A stretch of DNA of 64,000 bases from Flavobacteriaceae bacterium (GCA_018402385.1 JAGYJA010000010.1:1-64000); one strand, 5' to 3'; positions 12,391 to 22,695 are shown, counted from the stretch's first letter. Program-made: numbers and translations. The notes: generated by a model from the sequence alone, not told the origin.

Positions 12391-12972
12391 TTAAAATATC
12401 CAGTTGTTAAGTAGCAATGGAATGGCCAGACCTAAAATAATTGATGAAATCACCAACACCCAGTCTTTTTTATTAAACCGGAAAATAGTTTGAACAACCG
12501 TACCAATAATCAAAACAATTAAAGCCACGATAATTTGCCCTGCTTCAACACCCAAGGCAACTTCCAATAATGGAAGAATTTTACCTTTTTGACCCACAGC
12601 TTCTAGAAATTGTGGCGCAAATTCAAGCCCTCGTAAAAGTCCTAAAAAAATTGAAAGTCCAAACAAGAGCCCCAGCTTTTCACGTCGTTTTTCTTTTCCG
12701 GCGGTAAAAATATTAAAGAGTGCCGTAAAAATAATTAACATTGCAATGAGGAATCCCACCATACCCAGGCTCACTTTTACCACACCATAAGAAACCATTA
12801 AAACAGCCAGCAAATGACCCAATGTAAATAAAGTGATGAGCAGCAATAAACGCTTCCAGGCATTGAATTGATAGGCTACTGTAAGCAATATGACAAATAA
12901 AATGTGGGCATAATTAGACCAGTTGATCACGTGGTCAAGACCCATTTTGAAGTAAAACCAGAATTCAGTCAT
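12391..12972 (-). CDS. HupE/UreJ-like membrane protein
   Basis: 193 residues with about six membrane helices. MTEFWFYFKMGLDHVINWSN resembles the HupE/UreJ N terminus (HxxGxDH-type GLDHV), and LFTLGHLLAV and FGLSIFLGLLRGLEF also fit that family. HupE proteins are proposed nickel/cobalt permeases, but this divergent flavobacterial branch has no proven substrate. I prefer ATG 12972 over 13002, which would add ten weakly plausible residues. It is the last core gene before the tRNA-Leu element. Confidence 0.7.
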   Translation of the reverse strand: MTEFWFYFKMGLDHVINWSNYAHILFVILLTVAYQFNAWKRLLLLITLFTLGHLLAVLMVSYGVVKVSLGMVGFLIAMLIIFTALFNIFTAGKEKRREKLGLLFGLSIFLGLLRGLEFAPQFLEAVGQKGKILPLLEVALGVEAGQIIVALIVLIIGTVVQTIFRFNKKDWVLVISSIILGLAIPLLLNNWIF

Positions 12973-13045
12973 TGTTTTGGGGGATAAACTTGAATGAACC
13001 AAAGTTAGTAAATGTTGATTTAAATAAACCTCTTTTAAACAAAAA

Positions 13046-13072
13046 AAGCCTTAATCAAAAGATTGAGGCTTT
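13046..13072 (-). terminator. terminator, first tRNA-Leu-associated copy
   Basis: A near-perfect hairpin AAGCCTTAATC / GATTGAGGCTT with loop AAAA. Seven T follow when read on the minus strand. It lies directly downstream (minus strand) of a tRNA-Leu 3' fragment at 13074-13110 and repeats, 87 bp away, as 13128-13159. Confidence 0.65.
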
Positions 13073-13073
13073 A

Positions 13074-13110
13074 TACTCAAGGTGGCCCCGAAGTCTCGGG
13101 GGAACCCACA
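13074..13110 (-). pseudogene. tRNA-Leu 3'-end remnant (older integration scar)
   Basis: TACTCAAGGTGG (13074-13085) equals the acceptor/T-arm end of the intact tRNA-Leu at 21527. It is followed by a CCCCGA-AGTC-TCGGGG hairpin and then AACCCACACTC, which again matches the tRNA T-arm region. No anticodon or D-arm follows, so it cannot be a functional tRNA. It looks like a second attachment-site scar left outside the present element. Confidence 0.55.
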
Positions 13111-13127
13111 CTCTTTTTTCTGTCCAC

Positions 13128-13159
13128 AAAAAAAGCCCCAATCAAAAGATTGAGACTTT
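13128..13159 (-). terminator. displaced terminator of the tRNA-Leu gene
   Basis: A hairpin AAAGCCCCAATC / GATTGAGACTTT (two mismatches) followed by seven T on the minus strand. It abuts the left 17-bp att copy at 13160. Before integration it would have stood directly downstream of tRNA-Leu, now 8.4 kb away. Confidence 0.6.
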
Positions 13160-13176
13160 GTACTCAAGGTGGGAAT
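13160..13176. repeat. left attachment site core (att)
   Basis: The 17-bp sequence GTACTCAAGGTGGGAAT is identical to 21526-21542, the 3' end of tRNA-Leu plus one base. The flanks diverge on both sides, as expected for the crossover core of a tRNA-targeting tyrosine integrase. It marks the left edge of the element. Confidence 0.85.
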
Positions 13177-13234
13177 ACTTTGTATGCAATTTCACTACAT
13201 TTCAAAACCTCAACAAACAAAAGAATATCATTAT

Positions 13235-13310
13235 AAATTGCAACAATAACAAGGCTTTACAAATGTAGTAAACTTTTGTTTTAAATTGCAATAGATATTA
13301 ACAAATTGCA
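13235..13310. promoter_or_regulatory. three AAATTGCA repeats upstream of the integrase
   Basis: AAATTGCAA at 13235-13243 and 13283-13291, and AAATTGCA at 13303-13310. The same TTGCAA core forms the inverted repeat in front of the excisionase-like gene at 16032-16061. This suggests one DNA-binding protein acting on both promoters (inference). Confidence 0.45.
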
Positions 13311-13314
13311 TTTT

Positions 13315-13335
13315 ACCGTACAAATGCCGTACAAA
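13315..13335. repeat. left arm-type direct repeats
   Basis: CCGTACAAA at 13316-13324 and again at 13327-13335, an 11-bp period (one helical turn). A matching pair with the same period lies inside the right end at 21448-21466. Candidate arm-type sites for the integrase N-terminal domain. Confidence 0.55.
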
Positions 13336-13340
13336 AACAT

Positions 13341-13370
13341 TATATTTGTATTGTTCAAACAATAATACAA
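13341..13370 (+). promoter_or_regulatory. integrase promoter region with TTGTTCAAACAA motif
   Basis: TATATTTG (13341-13348) is an exact TAnnTTTG -7 box 28 bp before the integrase ATG. Directly after it is TTGTTCAAACAATAATACA, which recurs with one change at 20981-20998 near the other end of the element. A shared operator is possible. Confidence 0.45.
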
Positions 13371-13375
13371 TACAA

Positions 13376-14635
13376 ATGGCAACTGTTAATTTCCTTTATC
13401 GGTCAACTAAAGACGAAGCACCCCTTAATTTAAGACTACTTTACAGGCACAATGGCAAAGACTATGTTTTTGGCGCAAAAACGAAGCTTAAAGTATCAAA
13501 GAACTACTGGAGCAAACAACACCAGCAATCGAGACCTAAAGACGTTGATATTTCAAACAAACAACTTGAAGTAAACAAAAAAATCAATAAAATTGAGAAC
13601 TTCATTTTAAAGGCATTTGATAATGCAAACCCCGTTGAGGTTGACAAAAAATGGTTGCAAAATAAAGTTGAACTATTCTACAATCCTATTGAGGAAACAA
13701 GCGAACTGCCAAACGAATTACTCAATTACTTTGAACATTACATTCAATCCAAAAAAGCGAGATTAAAAAACCAGACTTGTAAAAATTACAATACAGTATT
13801 TAACTTGCTTTCAAGATACCAGACCCACAAAAAGACAACCTTTTTAATAAAGGATTTCAACCTAAAATTTCAATCTGACTTTGAGCAATACTGTTACAGT
13901 CAAAACTATGCTGTAAATACTATTGCCAAAGCTATTGCCGTAATAATTACAGTTTGCAGGGATGCAAAATACAACGGTAAAGAATTGAGTTACCAATTTG
14001 AGAAAATCAAAGCAAAGGGCAAAAAGACCGATAAGATTTATTTAACACAGGCAGAAATTGACACACTCGAAGCCAAAACCGATTTACCCGAATATCTGGA
14101 CAATGCAAAAGACTGGCTTATTATAAGTTGTTACACAGGGCAAAGAGTTTCAGATTTTATGAGGTTCACACCCGAAATGATACGATATGAAAACGGCAAA
14201 CCTTTACTGGAGTTCACCCAAAAGAAAACCGACAAACTAATGACAGTACCATTACACCCCAAAGTAATGGACATACTCAACAAAAGAGACGGCAATTTCC
14301 CTCGTCCGATTTCCTCACAAAACTACAATGATTACATCAAAGACGTATGTAAAGAAGCTGAGATAAACCAACTCACAAAAGGCAGTTTATTACAAAAAGT
14401 CGATAGTGAGAAAAAAGACAAAAAAAAGGAATACAGGAAAGTTTACGATACATTTGAAAAATACAAGCTTGTTTCCTCTCACATTGGCAGACGTTCATTT
14501 GCTTCAAACTTTTATGGCAAAATACCCACTACTTATTTAATATACATTACAGGACACTCAACCGAAAAAATGTTTTTAAACTACATAGGGAAAAGCAATA
14601 AAGATTTAGCGCTTGAAATAACTAATTACTTTTAA
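13376..14635 (+). CDS. tyrosine recombinase (element integrase)
   Basis: A site-specific integrase of about 419 residues. The N-terminal arm-binding domain begins MATVNFLYRSTKDEAPLNLRL, then a SAM-like core-binding domain and a C-terminal catalytic domain. Catalytic residues are visible: Arg in YTGQRVSDF, Lys in TQKKTDKLMTVPL, His-x-x-Arg in SHIGRRSFASNF, His in ITGHSTEKMF and Tyr in LNYIGKS. ATG 13376 is chosen because the upstream in-frame codons lie over the promoter repeats. It sits 200 bp from the left att, as expected for a tRNA-Leu integrase. Confidence 0.93.
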   Translation: MATVNFLYRSTKDEAPLNLRLLYRHNGKDYVFGAKTKLKVSKNYWSKQHQQSRPKDVDISNKQLEVNKKINKIENFILKAFDNANPVEVDKKWLQNKVELFYNPIEETSELPNELLNYFEHYIQSKKARLKNQTCKNYNTVFNLLSRYQTHKKTTFLIKDFNLKFQSDFEQYCYSQNYAVNTIAKAIAVIITVCRDAKYNGKELSYQFEKIKAKGKKTDKIYLTQAEIDTLEAKTDLPEYLDNAKDWLIISCYTGQRVSDFMRFTPEMIRYENGKPLLEFTQKKTDKLMTVPLHPKVMDILNKRDGNFPRPISSQNYNDYIKDVCKEAEINQLTKGSLLQKVDSEKKDKKKEYRKVYDTFEKYKLVSSHIGRRSFASNFYGKIPTTYLIYITGHSTEKMFLNYIGKSNKDLALEITNYF

Positions 14636-14640
14636 GAATT

Positions 14641-15990
14641 ATGAAAAAAATCGACTCTTTAATATTTGCAAAAGACATTAAACCTCTTTATTTGAATGGT
14701 AAAAACATTGGCTATGAATTTAAATACGGGCAATATCTAAAGCCATACGAGGCAAAAGAACTGCCAGAATGGAATCATAACTTTAGCACTTGTGAAACGT
14801 GCGCAAATAATCAAAAGGAATTGATAAAAGACATTGAAAAAGAATTTCAAAAATTCCCTAATTGTTGCGACAATCACACAAAACTGATTTCACAAAATTG
14901 GTATAATAAAAAAGATTTTGAGGGTGTTCCAACTATGGTAGTAAACAAATATTTTTTTTGTTACTTTCAAATTCTTCAATACATAGACAAAGACAACTGG
15001 AATGAAAAAATTTTTGATTATTTAGATTACACAATTGATAGTTTCGGAATGTTTCCAGCTGAATTTGGCGAGCCATTTAAAGTCAATTGGTTTTTAGCTA
15101 AGCTTAAAGATTTATTAGAGCAGGATTTTAAGATAAGTACATTAAATCAAAAAGATTTACTTGTCCGTAAAAATGCTATATTAAAATATTTAAAAACCGT
15201 TTTTGAGCCACACGAACCAGATTTTTCAAGTTTAAATATATTAATCAAAACTTATGGCGATTGGCTAAAGGTATTCCCATTTGAAGTCGAAGAACTTAAG
15301 CATCTAAAAAAAGATTTTGAAAATAGATTGCCTATCATAAAAGGCGTTGACAGGGTGAATGAGTACTCAGGAAAAAAAACATACAAAATTTACACAAAGG
15401 AGACCTTAGTTGATGTTTTAAACATAATCACTAAAAATTTAATTTCAAAAGTAGATTTTCAAAGAATCATACAAGGCGGTGATTTAAAGCAATTAAATGA
15501 AGTTCAAATTCAGATTCTAAATGCTGAATTAAAAGCAAAAACAGAAAGCCTTGTTAGTGATTACTCCAAAGGTGAACTTAATTACATTAAAGTTCTGAAA
15601 AACTGGCTTAAGTATCATAAAGCATATTTTAATCAAATAAAGCCACTATTAAAAGAAAGTGAAGAAACCTGTTCAGAATATATTTTAATAAAAAATAGAT
15701 ATCCTCATATTTTCAAAGATGATTTTGGCTTCACTCTCTTTACAAAAATGTTTGAGTTTTATAAAGACGAGGGCAAACATCTGGCTAATTTTAGTTTTCT
15801 TTTTTACGCTATGGAAAAAGAATTTTTAGTATGTAAACAAGTTGATTTTATTAGATTATTAGAGAATGAAGAATATAATATTTTTATAGATAAAATTGAT
15901 AGTCGTCAAATCGGAAGCCCAACTAAAACAAAGTTATACAACTCAGTTAAGGATAACATATTTAAAAAGCACAGAAAAAGCACAATTTAA
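14641..15990 (+). CDS. unknown 449-aa protein of the tRNA-Leu element
   Basis: Not recognised. It lies 5 bp after the integrase stop and is probably coexpressed. The protein is soluble, Lys/Glu-rich and mostly helical. Near residues 50-82 it has CETCANNQ and later CCDNH, which could bind a metal. The C-terminal third (ANFSFLFYAMEKEFLV...FIRLLENEEYNIFID) resembles a helical segment I have seen in other Bacteroidota mobile-element proteins, but I cannot name a family. Position between int and xis suggests either a recombination accessory or cargo (inference). Confidence 0.8.
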   Translation: MKKIDSLIFAKDIKPLYLNGKNIGYEFKYGQYLKPYEAKELPEWNHNFSTCETCANNQKELIKDIEKEFQKFPNCCDNHTKLISQNWYNKKDFEGVPTMVVNKYFFCYFQILQYIDKDNWNEKIFDYLDYTIDSFGMFPAEFGEPFKVNWFLAKLKDLLEQDFKISTLNQKDLLVRKNAILKYLKTVFEPHEPDFSSLNILIKTYGDWLKVFPFEVEELKHLKKDFENRLPIIKGVDRVNEYSGKKTYKIYTKETLVDVLNIITKNLISKVDFQRIIQGGDLKQLNEVQIQILNAELKAKTESLVSDYSKGELNYIKVLKNWLKYHKAYFNQIKPLLKESEETCSEYILIKNRYPHIFKDDFGFTLFTKMFEFYKDEGKHLANFSFLFYAMEKEFLVCKQVDFIRLLENEEYNIFIDKIDSRQIGSPTKTKLYNSVKDNIFKKHRKSTI

Positions 15991-16031
15991 GAACTTTTTC
16001 GTGCCTTTAAAGCATTGATTATCAAGTGATA

Positions 16032-16061
16032 TTTGCAATATAAATCAATAAATATTGCAAA
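16032..16061. promoter_or_regulatory. inverted-repeat operator in front of the excisionase-like gene
   Basis: Perfect 10-bp arms TTTGCAATAT (16032-16041) and ATATTGCAAA (16052-16061) end 2 bp before the ATG at 16063. Such placement fits autorepression, possibly by the HTH protein itself. Confidence 0.6.
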
Positions 16062-16062
16062 A

Positions 16063-16344
16063 ATGGATTCACAAATTATTCTACAAGGCACGACCCCCAG
16101 CCAATTAGTTGACCTAATAAACGAGGGTGTAAAAACACAGCTGGAGCGGTTTAAAAAAGAACTACAAACCCAGACGGCAAATGACGACCTACTAACACGT
16201 GAACAAACGTGTGAACTTCTACAAATCAACGCATCAACTTTATGGCATTGGCAGAATAAAGGCAAAGTCAAAGGCTATGGCATTGGCAATCGTAGATACT
16301 ACAAAAGGAGTGAATTACTCGAAAGTTTAACCCTCTTAAAGTAG
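16063..16344 (+). CDS. helix-turn-helix excisionase-like protein
   Basis: 93 residues. The N-terminal coiled helix (LVDLINEGVKTQLERFKKEL) is followed by a MerR/AlpA-like winged HTH: LLTREQTCELLQINASTLWHW, then KGYGIGNRRYYKRSEL. This is the common Bacteroidota form in which an excisionase-like protein is encoded between integrase and replication gene. The preferred start, 16063, follows a perfect inverted repeat. Ends 5 bp before the next gene. Confidence 0.82.
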   Translation: MDSQIILQGTTPSQLVDLINEGVKTQLERFKKELQTQTANDDLLTREQTCELLQINASTLWHWQNKGKVKGYGIGNRRYYKRSELLESLTLLK

Positions 16345-16349
16345 TAGTT

Positions 16350-16628
16350 ATGAGTTCAAACAACAATCAAAATACAGGCAAATTTGACGACCAGTTCAAA
16401 AAGGTATTTAACGCATTCTTTGAGTTTCCCAAAACAATGAAAGAGGTTGACAAGGAAACCAGAGTTATGAGAGAAAACATTTGCTGGTATGTAAGGACTT
16501 TAAGAGAATCAAACAGCATTGCACTTGTTGGTTATCGTAGATGTAAGGTTACTGGCTTTAATAAGGTTGGTATTTACACAACAAATCCGGATTTATTCCC
16601 AATGTCAAACCAACTTGAATTGTTTTAA
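16350..16628 (+). CDS. small winged-helix-like mobile-element protein
   Basis: 92 residues. The pattern FDDQFKKVFNAFFEFPKTMKEVDKET, then MRENICWYVRTLRESNSIALVG and a YTTNPDLFP...QLELF tail, recurs in many Bacteroidota mobile elements. It reads like a winged-helix DNA-binding fold. It lies between the HTH gene and the replication gene with gaps of 5 bp and 1 bp, so the three form one transcription unit. The role is probably regulatory or a replication accessory (inference). Confidence 0.75.
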   Translation: MSSNNNQNTGKFDDQFKKVFNAFFEFPKTMKEVDKETRVMRENICWYVRTLRESNSIALVGYRRCKVTGFNKVGIYTTNPDLFPMSNQLELF

Positions 16629-16629
16629 T

Positions 16630-18984
16630 ATGGAAAGTAAAAGCAATTTTCAAACGTTCGTAGATAGCTGGAAAGCTGACTTCATTAAACGTATCAAAAG
16701 CGACACAGGAAGCCGTAAAATGATTTTTACTTTTAACGATGCAGTCGAACGAAGTCAAAGCAACCGCACCCAATTGGATGAGGTATTTATTGAGTACTTC
16801 AAATACATAAATTCAAATCCATTAAGGCACAACGATTACTTTAAATATCTGAATAGCTACAAACAAGGCAAACGGCTGGACGAGAAGTATTTTAGACACG
16901 ATTTACAGTTACTTCACGAACTTTACATAAAAGTAGATGAGAATCCAGATTACAACCCTTTTTCATTACAAGTCTGGCAAAGGTATGTATTGTTTATGCT
17001 ATTAAAATTTAAGGGAGTCTACACGGCTGAAATGGACGATGTATTTGGAGTTAAGATTGATGAGAACCGAGAGTACAACCCATTGAGCAACCTCTCACGA
17101 CCTTTGAGAGGTATGTTACCAAAGTCGCTAAAGCTTAAAGAGTACGACATTGCCCGTGCTTATCCTACTTTTATAGATTTAGAACTTGGAATAAAACGAG
17201 ATGAGGACGTTTACAGACTCATAGACAAGCTAAAATACAATAGACTACTAAACACCCATAGTGAGACAAAAGGCGCAACCATTGAAGCCGTGAGGGCTGA
17301 GTTAAAGTGTGTTTATAACGGCACGGCTGACAAGGTTATAACAAACGATCGGTTTTATAACAAAGGTCAAATGTTTAGGGATTTGACAAAATATGAAGCT
17401 GAGTACATTTACAAATTCATTGAGACAAACAATATAAATCTATTTGTAAGGCTTCACGATGCAGTATTTGTGCTGGCTGGTGTTGAGGTTTCACAAATGG
17501 AGTTTGGCACGGTTAAATTCAAATCTAAAGAGGTCAAACCCCCTGAGATTGTAAACGAGGTAAAAAGTTTTTACTCTTTTGACGAGGGCGGAACGGTTGT
17601 TACTTCACCAGTTAGTTATAAGGACTTTTTCGAGCAGGAAAATTTGATAAGAATAACCGAGCAGGACAATGACCGAATTACAATTTTCAAAGACACGAAT
17701 AACGTAGTTAAGGCTTTTAATTACAAAACAGACACACCCCCCTATTTATCGTCAAACATCAATGAGTTTGACACGACCGATGTAGAAAATAAAATTGCTA
17801 AAGACAATCACAACACAATTTATGGTGGTTTCTTACTATTAAACCCAAAGCCGTTAAACTACTATGCAGACACCAAAGATACTTTTGGACTGCCTTTTAA
17901 AAATGGTTTCTTTTTATATTCCAAAGTTGATAACAAAGTCCACAGGATGCAGTATAAAGAGGTTAACGGTTTCTTTGCGCCACACCCAACGCAGGAACGG
18001 GATTTTGAATTTAATGAAAATACAGAAACAAGTGTTTTTGCTCAATTCCTTATAATGTCTTCAACTGGGAAAGACATTCTAAAGGACGAATTAACAGAAC
18101 AAGACGAAGCCACAATAAGTTTATTTTTTAGAATGTTTGGTTATTTGATTCACACCTACAAAGACCCAGCCTTTACTCCAGCAATCATTTTATCTGATGA
18201 GGGTGCGGACGACCAAAGCCGAAAAGGTGGACGAGGAAAAACAATAATTATTAAAGCTATTGAACAAGTGCAGAACTCCATAATAAAGGGCGGTGATGAG
18301 TTTGACGGGAGTTATAGGCATAAGTTTGCAGACCTCGAAAAAGCGCACAAAGTTTACGCTATTGACGATGTTCCAGCGGGTTTTAAATATGATGACTTGT
18401 ACACCAACCTTGTAAACGGCATATCGTGTGAGAGGAAAGGAAAAACAGCCCAGACGATACCATTTAAAGAAGCCCCGAAATTTGTAATTACAACAAATTG
18501 GGCGGTGCGTTACGATGCTGAGGCAACCTCAACCCATAGACGATTTATGGAGTTTAAATTGACTAAATTTTTCAATCTAAAAAACACCCCTTTAATGGTA
18601 TTCGGTCATAGATTTTTTGATGACTGGGATTCTGAGGAATGGAATAGGTTTTACAATTTTGCTTTTACGTGTGTTGAGCTTTATTTAGAGTTTGGACTGG
18701 AAGCACCGAAATATGACAAAGACGAGGACAATTTTAGAGCCTACTTTTATAGTGATGTTTTACTGCAGGAATTTGAACGGATTTTCAGTATCGTATCTAA
18801 ATGGGAAAACGGCTTCAATGTGAGTGATTTTCTTAAACAATACAAAGAGCCAACAAACGAACTCAGATTTGAAGGATTTTTTCACCAGAACAATGTGAAA
18901 ATTTTGATTCAAACTTATATCAAATCCAAAAATTTAGATTTTGAATACAAAAGCGACAAAAAAAGATGGGTAAAAAAAGTTTAG
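16630..18984 (+). CDS. primase/SF3-helicase-like replication protein
   Basis: 784 residues from ATG 16630, one base after the previous stop. The C-terminal half has a Walker A-like GGRGKTIIIKAIE (~533-545), a B-like VYAIDDVPAG (~577) and FVITTNWAV (~617), the arrangement of SF3/D5-type helicases (DUF5906 primase-helicase group). The N-terminal third has EYDIARAYPTFID (~170), like the DxxSLYP motif A of family-B polymerases, VRAELKCVYNG (~220) and RLHDAVFVL (~275). A primase or polymerase domain there is inference. It probably starts replication of the excised element at the iteron-like repeats just downstream. Confidence 0.8.
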   Translation: MESKSNFQTFVDSWKADFIKRIKSDTGSRKMIFTFNDAVERSQSNRTQLDEVFIEYFKYINSNPLRHNDYFKYLNSYKQGKRLDEKYFRHDLQLLHELYIKVDENPDYNPFSLQVWQRYVLFMLLKFKGVYTAEMDDVFGVKIDENREYNPLSNLSRPLRGMLPKSLKLKEYDIARAYPTFIDLELGIKRDEDVYRLIDKLKYNRLLNTHSETKGATIEAVRAELKCVYNGTADKVITNDRFYNKGQMFRDLTKYEAEYIYKFIETNNINLFVRLHDAVFVLAGVEVSQMEFGTVKFKSKEVKPPEIVNEVKSFYSFDEGGTVVTSPVSYKDFFEQENLIRITEQDNDRITIFKDTNNVVKAFNYKTDTPPYLSSNINEFDTTDVENKIAKDNHNTIYGGFLLLNPKPLNYYADTKDTFGLPFKNGFFLYSKVDNKVHRMQYKEVNGFFAPHPTQERDFEFNENTETSVFAQFLIMSSTGKDILKDELTEQDEATISLFFRMFGYLIHTYKDPAFTPAIILSDEGADDQSRKGGRGKTIIIKAIEQVQNSIIKGGDEFDGSYRHKFADLEKAHKVYAIDDVPAGFKYDDLYTNLVNGISCERKGKTAQTIPFKEAPKFVITTNWAVRYDAEATSTHRRFMEFKLTKFFNLKNTPLMVFGHRFFDDWDSEEWNRFYNFAFTCVELYLEFGLEAPKYDKDEDNFRAYFYSDVLLQEFERIFSIVSKWENGFNVSDFLKQYKEPTNELRFEGFFHQNNVKILIQTYIKSKNLDFEYKSDKKRWVKKV

Positions 18985-19312
18985 GTGTAAGTTTTATGGC
19001 TGAAAACCCCAGTAAAATCGTTGGCGGTGTAATAGGTGTAAGCCAACTGACACCCGTTAAAATTGCCTTAAAGCCTTGTTTTTGTTGGTTGTCTGGCTTG
19101 TTACTTACACCCCTGACACCTATTTTACTATGTATGGGAGTGAGATTTAAAAACAAACATTAAAAACAACTCATATTTATTCTAATAATAAAAAGATATG
19201 AAAACAGGTGTAAGAGGTGTAAGTCTGGACTTAAATATACTGATATACAGATTGTTAAATTAAAATATAGGTGTAAGTGTAGGTGTAAGCGACATACACC
19301 TATGACACCTAA
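18983..19312. repeat. iteron-like AGGTGTAAG array (candidate replication origin)
   Basis: Six exact direct copies of AGGTGTAAG at 18983, 19034, 19206, 19215, 19269 and 19281, two of them adjacent. CTTACACCC lies at 19104-19112. TGACACC(T) copies lie at 19048, 19114 and near 19304. They fill the 348-bp gap after the helicase gene. Open frames here translate only the repeats (GVS, LTP) and are not called. Repeats beside the replication gene suggest an origin or replication-control site. Confidence 0.6.
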
Positions 19313-19332
19313 ACCCAAAAATCAATAAAAAA

Positions 19333-19539
19333 ATGAAAACAGAAAATCCAGTCTTAGTAAACGATTTAAGGCGAACTCTTAAAACTATGATGCAAAAGGA
19401 AATTGAGAGACTGCCTGAGTATCTGGAAAGCTTAGAGCCACAGGAACGCATCAATATTGTTATAAAATTGATTCCCTTTGTATTTCCAAAAGTCCAGCCA
19501 GTAGATGCACAAAAGGGCGAACCCCTCACATTTGATTAA
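19333..19539 (+). CDS. small conserved mobile-element protein
   Basis: 68 residues: a basic amphipathic helix (VLVNDLRRTLKTMMQKEIERL), then LPEYLESLEPQERINIVIKLIPFVFPKV. This LPEYLE...LEPxERxxxxxKLxPFVxPKV pattern is frequent in hypothetical proteins of Bacteroidota phages and elements. No function is known to me. It follows the iteron-like region and precedes the next gene by 27 bp. Confidence 0.7.
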   Translation: MKTENPVLVNDLRRTLKTMMQKEIERLPEYLESLEPQERINIVIKLIPFVFPKVQPVDAQKGEPLTFD

Positions 19540-19566
19540 ATTAAAATTCCCTAAAGATTTAGGTTT

Positions 19567-20154
19567 ATGGCAAAATTTCCTACTTTCCCTACCTTGTACG
19601 ATAATGTACTGCAAATAAGCATTAAGAAGCTTAAAGAGTTTGGTTATTTAGAGAAAAATAAAGTAATAACAAGTTCACTACATTGGAGCAGAAACGGTGA
19701 GGAAACGGCGAGCATTTCAATTAGAGTTAACACCTTTACAGAACCTCATCACATTGAACTGATTTACAACACAAACGGCGAACCCCGAAACTACAAAGTA
19801 AGTCTGGTTACAATACCCTCAAATTTAGGTAAGGGCAAAATATGGTATTTCCTTTGCCCTCACACTCATAAAAAATGCAGAAAACTTTATTTAATTGGGG
19901 GTTACTTTCTTCACCGTGAAGCGTTCACAGGATGTATGTATGAGAGCCAAACAGTAAGCAAACATTACAGATTTTTAGAAAATACTTTTGGAGCAGTCTT
20001 TAAAACTGAAAGACTTTATGAGCAACTATACTCAAAACACTTTACAAAATACTACAAAGGAAAACCCACTAAAAAATATTTGCGTATTTTAGAGCAACTT
20101 AAAAAAGCCGAAAATATTGACGAAAGGGAACTGTTTAAAATGAAATATTTGTGA
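19567..20154 (+). CDS. hypothetical protein with degenerate zinc-ribbon signature
   Basis: 195 residues, no membrane segment. The middle reads FLCPHTHKKCRKLYLIGG, then YFLHREAFTGCMYESQ. This follows the layout of a widespread hypothetical family (CPxC..RCRKLYLP...FxCRxCxxLxYxSQ), but with several ligands replaced: the first CPxC is CPHT and the second CRxC is HREAFTGC. Metal binding may be altered. The C terminus is basic and helical. Function is unknown; it is element-borne. Confidence 0.72.
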   Translation: MAKFPTFPTLYDNVLQISIKKLKEFGYLEKNKVITSSLHWSRNGEETASISIRVNTFTEPHHIELIYNTNGEPRNYKVSLVTIPSNLGKGKIWYFLCPHTHKKCRKLYLIGGYFLHREAFTGCMYESQTVSKHYRFLENTFGAVFKTERLYEQLYSKHFTKYYKGKPTKKYLRILEQLKKAENIDERELFKMKYL

Positions 20155-20234
20155 TTTACGGGATTCCTCATTTTTAAGTAAAATGGTTTCTTTAAATTTG
20201 AAGTAAAATAAAATTAATTTAAACTTATTCAATT

Positions 20235-20819
20235 ATGAGAATTTTATCATTTATAGTTCTATTAACCTTAATAAACCCATTATTCGCACAAAGGGATGAG
20301 GTAAAAACAACTCTTGAGCAGGATAAGTTCGAGGGAACTAATACCGTAACTACTGAAATGTGGCAAAATTTTGGAAAAGCATCATCTGGGTATAGGTTAT
20401 CAGGTATGATAACAAAAAATGATAAAACAGATGTAATTTTTTTTAGAATATTTTTCACAGGCGATTTAGGTTGTTTATCACAAAGTAGCAGCAAGTTATC
20501 AGTAAAACTTTCTAATGATGAAATAATTGAATTTACTCAACTATCAAAAACAGATTGTAGTAAAGCGCCAATCGCAGTTTTTGTACCCTTAAAAGAAAGT
20601 GACTTAGATTTACCTGAGGAAGTTTATAACCAAATTGCAACAGATAATGTAGAACAATTGAAAAAATATGAATGGACTATTATTAGATTGTCAGGCAGTG
20701 AATATTATACAAATATTGAACCAGAACCCACAAGGCGAATTAAAAATCCTGAGCAGTTTTTTATAAAACACATTGAAGCAATTGAAAACCACGAGATTTT
20801 TAAAACAAAAGATGAGTAG
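20235..20819 (+). CDS. secreted protein of unknown function
   Basis: 194 residues with a clear N-terminal signal peptide (MRILSFIVLLTLINPLFAQ, cleavage likely after Ala-Gln). The mature part has a beta-rich character (VIFFRIFFTGDLGC, KLSNDEIIEFTQLS) and two cysteines. Not recognised. Its own upstream gap (80 bp) and a terminator at 20951 suggest a separate transcription unit, probably cargo of the tRNA-Leu element. Confidence 0.72.
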   Translation: MRILSFIVLLTLINPLFAQRDEVKTTLEQDKFEGTNTVTTEMWQNFGKASSGYRLSGMITKNDKTDVIFFRIFFTGDLGCLSQSSSKLSVKLSNDEIIEFTQLSKTDCSKAPIAVFVPLKESDLDLPEEVYNQIATDNVEQLKKYEWTIIRLSGSEYYTNIEPEPTRRIKNPEQFFIKHIEAIENHEIFKTKDE

Positions 20820-20950
20820 AATTTATAGATGAGTAAGAAAAAAAAACATAACAACTTTTTTAATTAAATTATACCTCGTAGGTTAAAAGAAAGGGCTTTA
20901 AAGAGTATGCAAAAAATAAGGAAAATATTTAATATAAAATAGAATAAAAA

Positions 20951-20982
20951 GAGGGCAACCAGTTCGGAAACCCTCGTTTTTT
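20951..20982 (+). terminator. terminator-like hairpin
   Basis: GAGGG (20951-20955) and CCCTC (20971-20975), loop of 15, then G and six T. It lies 130 bp after the secreted-protein gene. Confidence 0.5.
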
Positions 20983-20998
20983 GTTCAAACAACAATAC
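20981..20998. repeat. second TTGTTCAAACAA motif
   Basis: TTGTTCAAACAACAATACA, one substitution from 13351-13369 next to the integrase promoter. The two copies lie at opposite ends of the element. Confidence 0.45.
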
Positions 20999-21039
20999 AC
21001 AGGCAATGCGTATTGTTACTTCAAAGATAAGGTATTCTT

Positions 21040-21195
21040 ATGATAAAAAGAAAGCCAAAAAAAGACAAAAGATATAATAACTACTTTGACAATTACGCTG
21101 AGAGGTACAAAGACGGCTTTATAGGTGGTTTATTCATTCTTTTGATATACGGCATCATTTACGGCATTTACAAACTCATCAACTGGTTATTTTGA
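21040..21195 (+). CDS. 51-aa single-pass membrane protein
   Basis: A short frame too small for routine gene calling. A basic start (MIKRKPKKDKRYNNYF) is followed by an ERYKDGFIGG turn and one hydrophobic helix (LFILLIYGIIYGIYKLINWLF). Its TGA overlaps the TTG start of the next gene (TTGA), a translational-coupling geometry, which supports it being real. Function unknown. Confidence 0.5.
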   Translation: MIKRKPKKDKRYNNYFDNYAERYKDGFIGGLFILLIYGIIYGIYKLINWLF

Positions 21196-21437
21196 CTTTA
21201 TACGATTTCAATATTTTAAGTGATTTAGAAAAAGAGGACGCCGTATTTAGGCAGGGAACTTTTGTTGATGCAATTCAAGTGAATGAAGTCAAATATTGCC
21301 TCTATGCAATAGATATGTTTTTTGTTGAGATTGAATATGACACGAAGCTGGAAAAACTGCACAACCTTAAAAGCTTTAAAAAAGGTTACTTATTAGATAG
21401 GTATCTGGACAAGTTCCCAAACATTAAAATACCTTAA
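21192..21437 (+). CDS. small conserved hypothetical protein (TTG start)
   Basis: 81 residues. MTLYDFNILSDLEKEDAVFRQGTFV, then VEIEYDTKLEKLHNLKSFKKGYLLDRYLDKF, match a layout frequent in small Bacteroidota mobile-element proteins of unknown role. The start is TTG at 21192, overlapping the upstream 51-aa gene by 4 bp. No better in-frame ATG exists near the N terminus. It is the last gene before the right attachment site. Confidence 0.65.
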   Translation: MTLYDFNILSDLEKEDAVFRQGTFVDAIQVNEVKYCLYAIDMFFVEIEYDTKLEKLHNLKSFKKGYLLDRYLDKFPNIKIP

Positions 21438-21447
21438 AAATACCTCA

Positions 21448-21466
21448 ACCGTACATAAACCGTACA
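21448..21466. repeat. right arm-type direct repeats
   Basis: ACCGTACA at 21448-21455 and 21459-21466, again with an 11-bp period, matching the left pair at 13315-13335. It lies 60 bp inside the right att core, against 140 bp for the left pair. Confidence 0.55.
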
Positions 21467-21479
21467 ATAAGTCAAAAAG

Positions 21480-21522
21480 AAAAACCGCAACCAATTGATA
21501 AACAATATAGTTACGGTTTTTT
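21480..21522 (-). terminator. element-supplied terminator of tRNA-Leu
   Basis: A stem of about 12 bp, AAAAACCGTAAC / GTTGCGGTTTTT (one GT wobble), with T-rich flank on the minus strand. It lies 5 bp downstream of the tRNA. It replaces the original terminator now at 13128-13159. Confidence 0.6.
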
Positions 21523-21525
21523 AAA

Positions 21526-21542
21526 GTACTCAAGGTGGGAAT
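21526..21542. repeat. right attachment site core (att) within tRNA-Leu
   Basis: GTACTCAAGGTGGGAAT, identical to 13160-13176. It covers the last 16 bases of the tRNA-Leu gene plus one. The element supplies this end and so restores a functional tRNA. Confidence 0.85.
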
Positions 21543-21608
21543 CGAACCCACACTCCCGAAAGAACTGGATTTTGAATCCAGCGCGTCTACCAATTCCGCC
21601 ACTTGAGC
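21527..21608 (-). tRNA. tRNA-Leu (anticodon CAA)
   Basis: 82 nt, CCA not encoded. The acceptor GCTCAAG pairs with CTTGAGT (one G-T), with discriminator A. The anticodon arm is CTGGA-TTCAAAA-TCCAG, giving anticodon CAA. A long variable arm (TTCTTTCGGGAGT region) and the T-arm GTGGG-TTCGATT-CCCAC follow. It is the target gene of the integrative element. Confidence 0.95.
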
Positions 21609-21693
21609 ATTTAAGGACGACAAAATTATAAAAATAATTGCATATACACCCTAAATAAGAACTAATTATGCTTCCTTGATTGAAATTATTTTC

Positions 21694-21701
21694 TAAATTT
21701 G
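21694..21701 (+). promoter_or_regulatory. prs -7 promoter box
   Basis: An exact TAAATTTG (TAnnTTTG) 53 bp before the prs ATG. A TTG at 21676-21678 is only 15 bp upstream, a short spacer. Confidence 0.4.
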
Positions 21702-21753
21702 CACCTCGTAAAAACAAGCAGACAGCAAAACCCTATTTTACAACCAGTTAACC

Positions 21754-22695
21754 ATGGCTAATCCAACACCAGAACCAAAGATTTTTGCCTGCTCACAGAG
21801 CATTGTACTCGCAGAAAAAATTGCCGAAGCGTTTGGTATGCCATTGGGGAATGTGATTACCTCTCATTACAGCGATGGTGAATTCCAACCTTCCTTTGAA
21901 GAGTCAGTTAGAGGAAGCAGGGTTTTTATTATTGGCTCCACCTTTCCAAACAGCGATAATCTGATGGAAATGTTATTGATGATTGATGCTGCAAAACGTG
22001 CTTCTGCAAGACATGTGACTGCAGTTTTACCATACTTTGGCTGGGCAAGACAAGACAGAAAAGACAAACCAAGAGTACCAATCGCTGCAAAACTAGTCGC
22101 TAAAATGCTGGAAACAGCAGGTGCAACGCGCATCATCACGATGGATTTGCATGCAGACCAAATTCAGGGATTCTTTGAAAAACCGGTGGATCATCTTTTT
22201 GCTTCTACCATCTTTTTGCCTTACCTGAGAAACTTAAACCTCGAAAACTTGACCATCGCTTCACCAGATATGGGCGGTTCAAAAAGAGCTTATGCTTATT
22301 CCAAATTCCTGGAAAGCGACGTGGTAATCTGTTATAAGCAACGTGAAAAAGCCAATGTGATTTCCCATATGGAACTCATTGGGGACGTTACCGGAAAAAA
22401 TGTGGTACTGGTGGATGATATGGTCGATACCGCAGGAACTCTCACAAAAGCAGCAGATGTAATGATGGAAAGAGGCGCATTGAGCGTAAGGGCCATTTGT
22501 ACACATGCTATCCTTTCAGGTAACGCTTACGAAAAAATAGAAAATTCAAAACTCGTGGAATTGATCGTAACAGATTCAATCCCATTGAAAAAAGAAAGCA
22601 ATAAAATTAAAGTACTAACGTGCTCAAAATTGGTAGCCGATGTGATGATAAGCGTCAACACAAACAACTCCATCAGTTCAAAATTTTTAATGTAA
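21754..22695 (+). CDS. prs: ribose-phosphate pyrophosphokinase
   Basis: Makes PRPP from ribose-5-phosphate and ATP for nucleotide, histidine and tryptophan synthesis. It has 313 residues. The class I signature DLHADQIQGFF holds the metal-binding His/Asp. YFGWARQDRKDKPR forms the flexible catalytic region, and VVLVDDMVDTAGTL is the PRPP-binding loop. N-terminal KIFACSQSIVLAEKIA replaces the usual short start. It is followed by rplY with an 83-bp gap. Confidence 0.96.
   Translation: MANPTPEPKIFACSQSIVLAEKIAEAFGMPLGNVITSHYSDGEFQPSFEESVRGSRVFIIGSTFPNSDNLMEMLLMIDAAKRASARHVTAVLPYFGWARQDRKDKPRVPIAAKLVAKMLETAGATRIITMDLHADQIQGFFEKPVDHLFASTIFLPYLRNLNLENLTIASPDMGGSKRAYAYSKFLESDVVICYKQREKANVISHMELIGDVTGKNVVLVDDMVDTAGTLTKAADVMMERGALSVRAICTHAILSGNAYEKIENSKLVELIVTDSIPLKKESNKIKVLTCSKLVADVMISVNTNNSISSKFLM

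Follow-up and report, generated by a model that had tools for sequence, protein, structure and literature searches.

What occupies the 3' end of the tRNA-Leu(CAA) gene in a 64,000-nucleotide stretch of DNA from a Flavobacteriaceae bacterium (the window), and is the occupant able to integrate, replicate and move? The original prediction placed an integrative element in tRNA-Leu, equipped with an integrase of its own and an iteron-bearing replication module, and the comparisons below support that description. The block is probably a complete integrative element of ~8.4 kb, similar to a minimalist satellite and with replication of the TV-Pol type, for which we infer excision, replication, control and a helper. 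Its boundaries and target are the following:

13039–13125, minus strand: second terminator and tRNA-Leu 3'-end relic with a 16-nt hairpin CCCCGAAGTCTCGGGG, a tandem extra copy
13126–13159, minus strand: displaced tRNA terminator
13160–13176, no strand: attL core, 17-bp repeat GTACTCAAGGTGGGAAT
21526–21542, no strand: attR core, identical 17-bp repeat inside the tRNA-Leu 3' end
21526–21608, minus strand: tRNA-Leu(CAA), the integration target, left complete by the element and uninterrupted in the genomes G001, G003 and G004

The predicted 17-bp direct repeat is exact at both places. A chance repeat was rejected: none of 20,000 random 500-bp stretches gave a 17-mer match to the tRNA-Leu, and the 11-mer ACTCAAGGTGG has three copies in the entire 2.77-Mb assembly, every one at this site. 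The integrase had been placed about 200 bp from the left copy, and its ATG lies 216 bp from the start of that repeat. The original terminator of the tRNA, which had been described as displaced to 13128–13159, was found at 13126–13159, and at the empty sites (G001, G003 and G004) a matching hairpin lies directly 3' of the tRNA. Empty tRNA-Leu sites in relatives, on which the original prediction had been made to depend, do exist: the congeners G001 and G004 carry the same left-flank gene and prs around a tRNA that is intact, has one terminator only and lacks the element, and G003 has an intact tRNA and terminator without the element, with a different left neighbour. When the flanks of the window element were joined (12961–13176 with 21543–21760), the product aligned at 88% across the junction to both congeners. 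The GC content is 33.0% within the element versus 37.8% in the rest of the window. The relic at 13039–13125, in which the hairpin CCCCGAAGTCTCGGGG stands in place of the T-arm GAATC, was not found in G001, G003 or G004 and is possibly the scar of an earlier insertion. Neither this relic nor the arm sites and related elements described below formed part of the original prediction. Another congener (G002, contig 87, L034) has a different insert abutting the same tRNA-Leu site, which looks like an insertion hot spot; that insert has a similar end (TTTCGGCAAAATTTCGGCAAAA repeats) and carries histidine-kinase-like and response-regulator-like genes.

Between the two cores, the following features were annotated, all genes lying on the plus strand:

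13316–13335, plus strand: left pair of putative integrase arm-type sites, CCGTACAAA twice, 11 bp apart
13376–14635, plus strand: tyrosine integrase, 419 aa (Pfam PF13102 2.6e-10, PF00589 1.3e-6; phrog_1 2e-22)
14641–15990, plus strand: 449-aa protein of no known family in a variable slot, starting 5 bp behind the integrase
16063–16344, plus strand: HTH_17 protein (AlpA/Xis-like), 93 aa from its ATG (PF12728 1e-9; phrog_66 excisionase/regulator 3.4e-6)
16350–16628, plus strand: small protein of 92 aa, possibly winged-helix, 49% identical to its positional counterpart in L038/L048
16630–18984, plus strand: 784-aa polymerase-helicase fusion (AlphaFold2 models, PDB comparisons, motifs invariant in 15 homologues)
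18984–19289, no strand: iterons GGTGTAAG, seven copies, putative replication origin
19333–19539, plus strand: 68-aa ORF, no family assigned
19567–20154, plus strand: 195-aa ORF with a homologue in the Flavobacterium plurextorum element L046 (cluster c29)
20235–20819, plus strand: 194-aa ORF, cargo, with a hydrophobic N terminus that by eye resembles a signal peptide
21040–21195, plus strand: 51-aa ORF with a hydrophobic stretch
21192–21437, plus strand: 81-aa ORF adjoining attR, with homologues in L040, L042 and L051 (cluster c4)
21449–21468, plus strand: right pair of putative integrase arm-type sites, CCGTACA twice, 11 bp apart

Most of the predicted gene content was borne out. The integrase and the HTH protein found their families in Pfam, and the 449-aa ORF is present and has no family match in Pfam, PHROGs, PADLOC or NCBIfam. 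The ORF of the supposed winged-helix-like protein is there as well and belongs to cluster c3 (members in 9 of the proteins compared), but it has no Pfam match and its label is kept as conjecture. As had been stated, no relaxase, coupling protein or phage structural gene was detected with Pfam, PHROGs, PADLOC or NCBIfam. No packaging, capsid or capsid-size gene had a PHROG or Pfam match, a search that distant homologues could escape. No known defence gene was found in the window copy, the cargo of which lacks assigned families.

The product of the gene labelled primase/helicase was refined to a family-A-like polymerase (approximately residues 60–306) fused to a D5/SF3 helicase (approximately residues 307–705). 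AlphaFold2 modelling, with 15 homologues in the alignment, gave a mean pLDDT of 86.8 for the whole fusion and 91.6 for the N half alone. Residues 307–705 have the fold of vaccinia D5 (Z 16.3, 329 residues) and of the SaPI5 primase-helicase (Z 16.2). The best 50 PDB matches of the N half were all family-A DNA polymerases, individually weak and none significant by itself in Foldseek (best E 0.025), with Z-scores in VIA-align of up to 8.3 over 209 residues. R147, D173, H276 and D277 are invariant in the 15 sequences, as are the Walker A, Walker B and sensor asparagine of the helicase. Judged by their order and the predicted secondary structure, D173, D277 and R147 would be equivalent to the published catalytic aspartates and hairpin arginine of TV-Pol. 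The RxxxK motif of the fingers would be R222xxxK226 in the window protein, its lysine not being conserved across the 15 sequences, and K200xxxN is the other candidate. At a Pfam cut-off of E 1, the fusion had no match to the DUF3987/DUF5906 primase, and a sequence-profile search of solved structures with the profiles of the fusion and of the 449-aa protein returned nothing above chance. The models fit a TV-Pol-type polymerase joined to a D5/SF3 helicase, and fusions of TV-Pol to D5 helicases were already named in 2008 (PMC2579912). Primase activity was predicted for TV-Pol (PMC2579912), with the SCCmec polymerase as a further precedent (PMC10061031), and by analogy is predicted for this fusion. 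More distant relatives, from other Bacteroidota, resemble the fusion in the helicase half only and have other N-terminal parts, in line with swapping of primase modules.

The iterons that had been reported lie just behind the fusion gene, where seven of the eight window copies of GGTGTAAG fall within 306 bp. Repeated 8-mers at this position exceeded every shuffle at 9 of 15 loci (the window, L040, L041, L045, L046, L047, L048, L049 and L050) and did not exceed the shuffles at L039, L042, L043, L044, L051 and L053. The motifs of the relatives are related to that of the window but different, and the region is a putative replication origin. A second set of repeats marks the ends of the element: CCGTACA has four copies in the 64 kb (at 13316, 13327, 21449 and 21460), on one strand only and two per element end. 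Pairs spaced 11 bp apart, with sequences that differ from CCGTACA, occur at both ends of L041, L046, L047, L048 and L049, and less complete sets of arm repeats were found in L039, L043 and L050. These pairs look like arm-type sites, to which the integrase would bind.

One scan of 84,980 species genomes revealed 15 other loci with the same core, hosted by Flavobacteriaceae or Flavobacteriales genera or MAGs with two exceptions (one Bacteroidetes MAG and one Chitinophaga). In an even draw from the family of the window organism, 5 of 397 genomes, including that of the window, carried a full-length copy of the fusion. The loci follow the order integrase, variable gene (sometimes absent), HTH gene, usually a small gene, fusion and cargo, with the order of integrase, HTH gene and polymerase-helicase constant across the family. 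At 10 loci, counting the window, the distal end has a tRNA or tmRNA gene on the other strand, and a repeat of a tRNA or tmRNA 3' end (14–48 bp; Leu, Arg, Cys and tmRNA genes) precedes the integrase at eight, namely the window and L041, L043, L045, L046, L047, L049 and L050. The elements delimited by such repeats span 6.1 to 13.9 kb. The integrases of L044 and L053 stand beside mnmE, and no tRNA was found near L040, L042 or L051. The longest shared words of L039 and L048 were rejected as att cores, these words being arm-site repeats. Since the integrases of L040, L041 and L042 are not significantly similar to the window integrase while their fusion proteins are 54–55% identical to the window fusion, the integration module has been exchanged. 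The family also bears on whether the block is a degenerate prophage that retained its integrase and replication genes. Distant phage relatives of the helicase half would suit such an origin, but the ORFs are intact, and many genera share the same short gene order with no structural genes among those scanned. Parallel decay to one common core is unlikely; a prophage remnant is highly improbable and was rejected.

The gene directly behind the integrase occupies a variable position of the layout. At 10 of 13 loci it overlaps the integrase gene or lies at most 12 bp behind it, and the encoded proteins are mostly unrelated to one another; that of L051 is RteC by Pfam (6.8e-11), a regulator family. 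The 449-aa protein of the window is modular: some homologues match its first 340 residues, others its last 170. Comparison of its C-terminal profile with RteC gave no support (Prob 0.6%), and homology to RteC is not claimed. We propose that this protein is an accessory in excision or control. It might instead be an anti-phage defence gene, a reading we consider doubtful. Its N domain is joined to a SEFIR/TIR domain (4.1e-11) in a free-standing protein away from integrases (L062:1366-2934), whose domain make-up is that of a defence protein, and, again away from integrases, to a tail weakly like NucS_C (E 0.026, below the cut-off; L059:1471-3279). Against a defence role, most homologues lie between the integrase and the HTH gene, in elements whose replication genes are of other kinds; the proteins found in the slot are numerous and unrelated, an RteC among them, and in PADLOC none of them had a clear defence match.

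Defence functions were found in the cargo of the relatives. A scan of 60 non-core ORFs from 12 elements, two of which (L044 and L053) have no proven right end, and for which the 25 commonest of 30 and of 46 families were listed, included three HsdR, two HsdM-type and two HsdS proteins, as well as GmrSD, Abi_2, SEFIR/TIR and YoeB-like proteins. Among the families listed for these ORFs there was no relaxase, coupling protein, terminase or capsid protein.

These features bring the elements close in layout to the PICMIs of Vibrionaceae, with which they share a stepwise gene order, defence-rich cargo, a similar size and the lack of packaging and capsid genes. PICMIs are arranged as int, slot gene, AlpA, small gene, primase, cargo (type I restriction among others) and target gene (PMC10803314). 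Their slot gene (iolg/icg), drawn from 13 unrelated families, overlaps or touches int, and the prototype requires iolg for excision (PMC10803314). The model for PICMIs accepts AlpA as PF05930 or PF12728 (PMC10803314), and the window element has the integrase (PF00589), the AlpA-type PF12728 and a replication gene. However, this gene is of another family, a TV-Pol-type polymerase-helicase in place of the DUF3987/DUF5906 primase, the targets are tRNA, tmRNA or mnmE (tRNA-Leu in the window) instead of fis, and the hosts are Flavobacteriaceae. Because the primase family and the fis site are two defining features, the element is not filed as a PICMI. SaPIs and other PICIs likewise combine an integrase, a replicator and cargo, and the SaPI5 enzyme is among the best matches of the helicase half, but no known packaging-interference or small-terminase gene was detected here and the polymerase half is of another kind. 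The TV-Pol elements described earlier (PMC2579912), among which Flavobacteriales members were listed, share the fusion of a family-A-like polymerase with D5 and its setting, a mobile element that encodes a tyrosine integrase. Those TV-Pols that are linked to integrases are mostly of the form with another N-terminal domain, whereas for the window element the limits are drawn, the att sites, arm sites and iterons are located, and both empty sites and a family of relatives are at hand.

The anatomy suggests the following course. Acting through the paired arm sites and the 17-bp core, the tyrosine integrase would recombine the element into the 3' end of tRNA-Leu(CAA), regenerating the tRNA. The HTH protein (AlpA/Xis-like) and the 449-aa protein would control and assist excision, and the excised circle would replicate from the iterons by its own TV-Pol-type polymerase/D5-SF3 helicase. 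The region from the iterons to the tRNA would serve as a cargo slot, holding defence genes in several relatives. Since the element has no transfer genes, passage from cell to cell would require a helper, either a phage or a conjugative element; a phage, as for PICMIs, has in our judgement an even chance and is the likelier of the two, with a conjugative element a weaker candidate. The attP circle junction had no match in viral_contigs, the one viral collection searched. Scans of viral contigs, phage records and plasmids, able to detect close relatives only, likewise yielded no full-length relative of the fusion. Together these negatives speak weakly against frequent packaging.

A static genomic island that has lost excision is unlikely: the missing circle match and the older relic beside the site agree with it, but the att cores are identical over 17 bp, arm sites and genes alike are undamaged, and the element is missing from congeners. 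An ordinary tRNA-side island without replication was also considered and rejected. An island of similar kind is the 10K island of Riemerella anatipestifer, also of the Flavobacteriales, which is ~10 kb long, has a tyrosine integrase with an intN1-like domain, lies at tRNA-Arg and excises spontaneously as detected by PCR (PMC6764341). It differs in its 53-bp repeat and its mostly hypothetical genes, no replication gene being named in that report (PMC6764341).

A rival reading makes the element an IME-like passenger of conjugation, its putative oriT being recognised by the relaxase of a co-resident ICE that mobilises it in trans. Canonical IMEs encode their own relaxase, and the target of NBU1 is tRNA-Leu. 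NBU1 and other Bacteroidetes IMEs resemble the window element as small integrated elements with a tyrosine integrase and a replication-type gene, and ICEs mobilise them, those of CTnDOT type in the case of NBU1, which differs in having a MobP relaxase of its own (PMC5704250). The host genome has one MOB relaxase (PF03432, 9.7e-22) and no terminase of PF03354, the one terminase family searched, both of which would suit mobilisation by conjugation, as does the tra-like cluster seen by eye at the start of contig 2. Nevertheless, the lack of a relaxase in the window element and among the families listed for its relatives, together with the better fit of the PICMI layout, leaves this reading improbable, although less so than a static island. 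The relaxase lies in the first 20 kb of contig 2 (L111, 1-20000), in a cluster that by eye reads like a Bacteroidota tra/conjugation region; several of its ORFs are split, perhaps through decay or sequencing errors.

A satellite-like integrative element with TV-Pol-type replication has apparently not been described as one system. Literature searches, in agreement with the original prediction, did not find this gene set treated as a single system, but two of its parts are known, the TV-Pol/D5 fusion (PMC2579912) and the PICMI layout (PMC10803314). The searches found no report of phage satellites in Flavobacteriaceae. We tentatively suggest that the elements may be a Flavobacteriaceae family of phage satellites that replicate by a TV-Pol/D5 fusion, independent of or remotely akin to the PICMIs of Vibrio. 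If so, they would share the replication architecture of the Sputnik virophage. They would also be a cellular example of the element with integrase and TV-Pol/D5 that was put forward as the core precursor of this virophage by Iyer et al. (2008; PMC2579912). The loci define a family of small mobile elements of Flavobacteriaceae, which carry defence genes in several hosts and for which att sites, arm sites, an origin, a replication enzyme and a cargo slot are predicted. They provide a delimited element in which priming and replication by TV-Pol become testable, and new functions in excision or defence may be found among the many unrelated proteins of the slot.

Three further loci or groups of loci deserve mention. 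Psychroflexus planctonicus has a related element at tRNA-Ala (L039:13335-18330), the neighbours of which are homologues of the three genes on the left flank of the window element. A second integrase and HTH gene after the first element in Maribacter flavus (L051:18522-21845) suggests elements in tandem. Finally, since the order integrase, slot gene and HTH gene recurs with other replication modules at L055-L061, L063 and L065, the layout seems to be wider than the TV-Pol family in Flavobacteriaceae.
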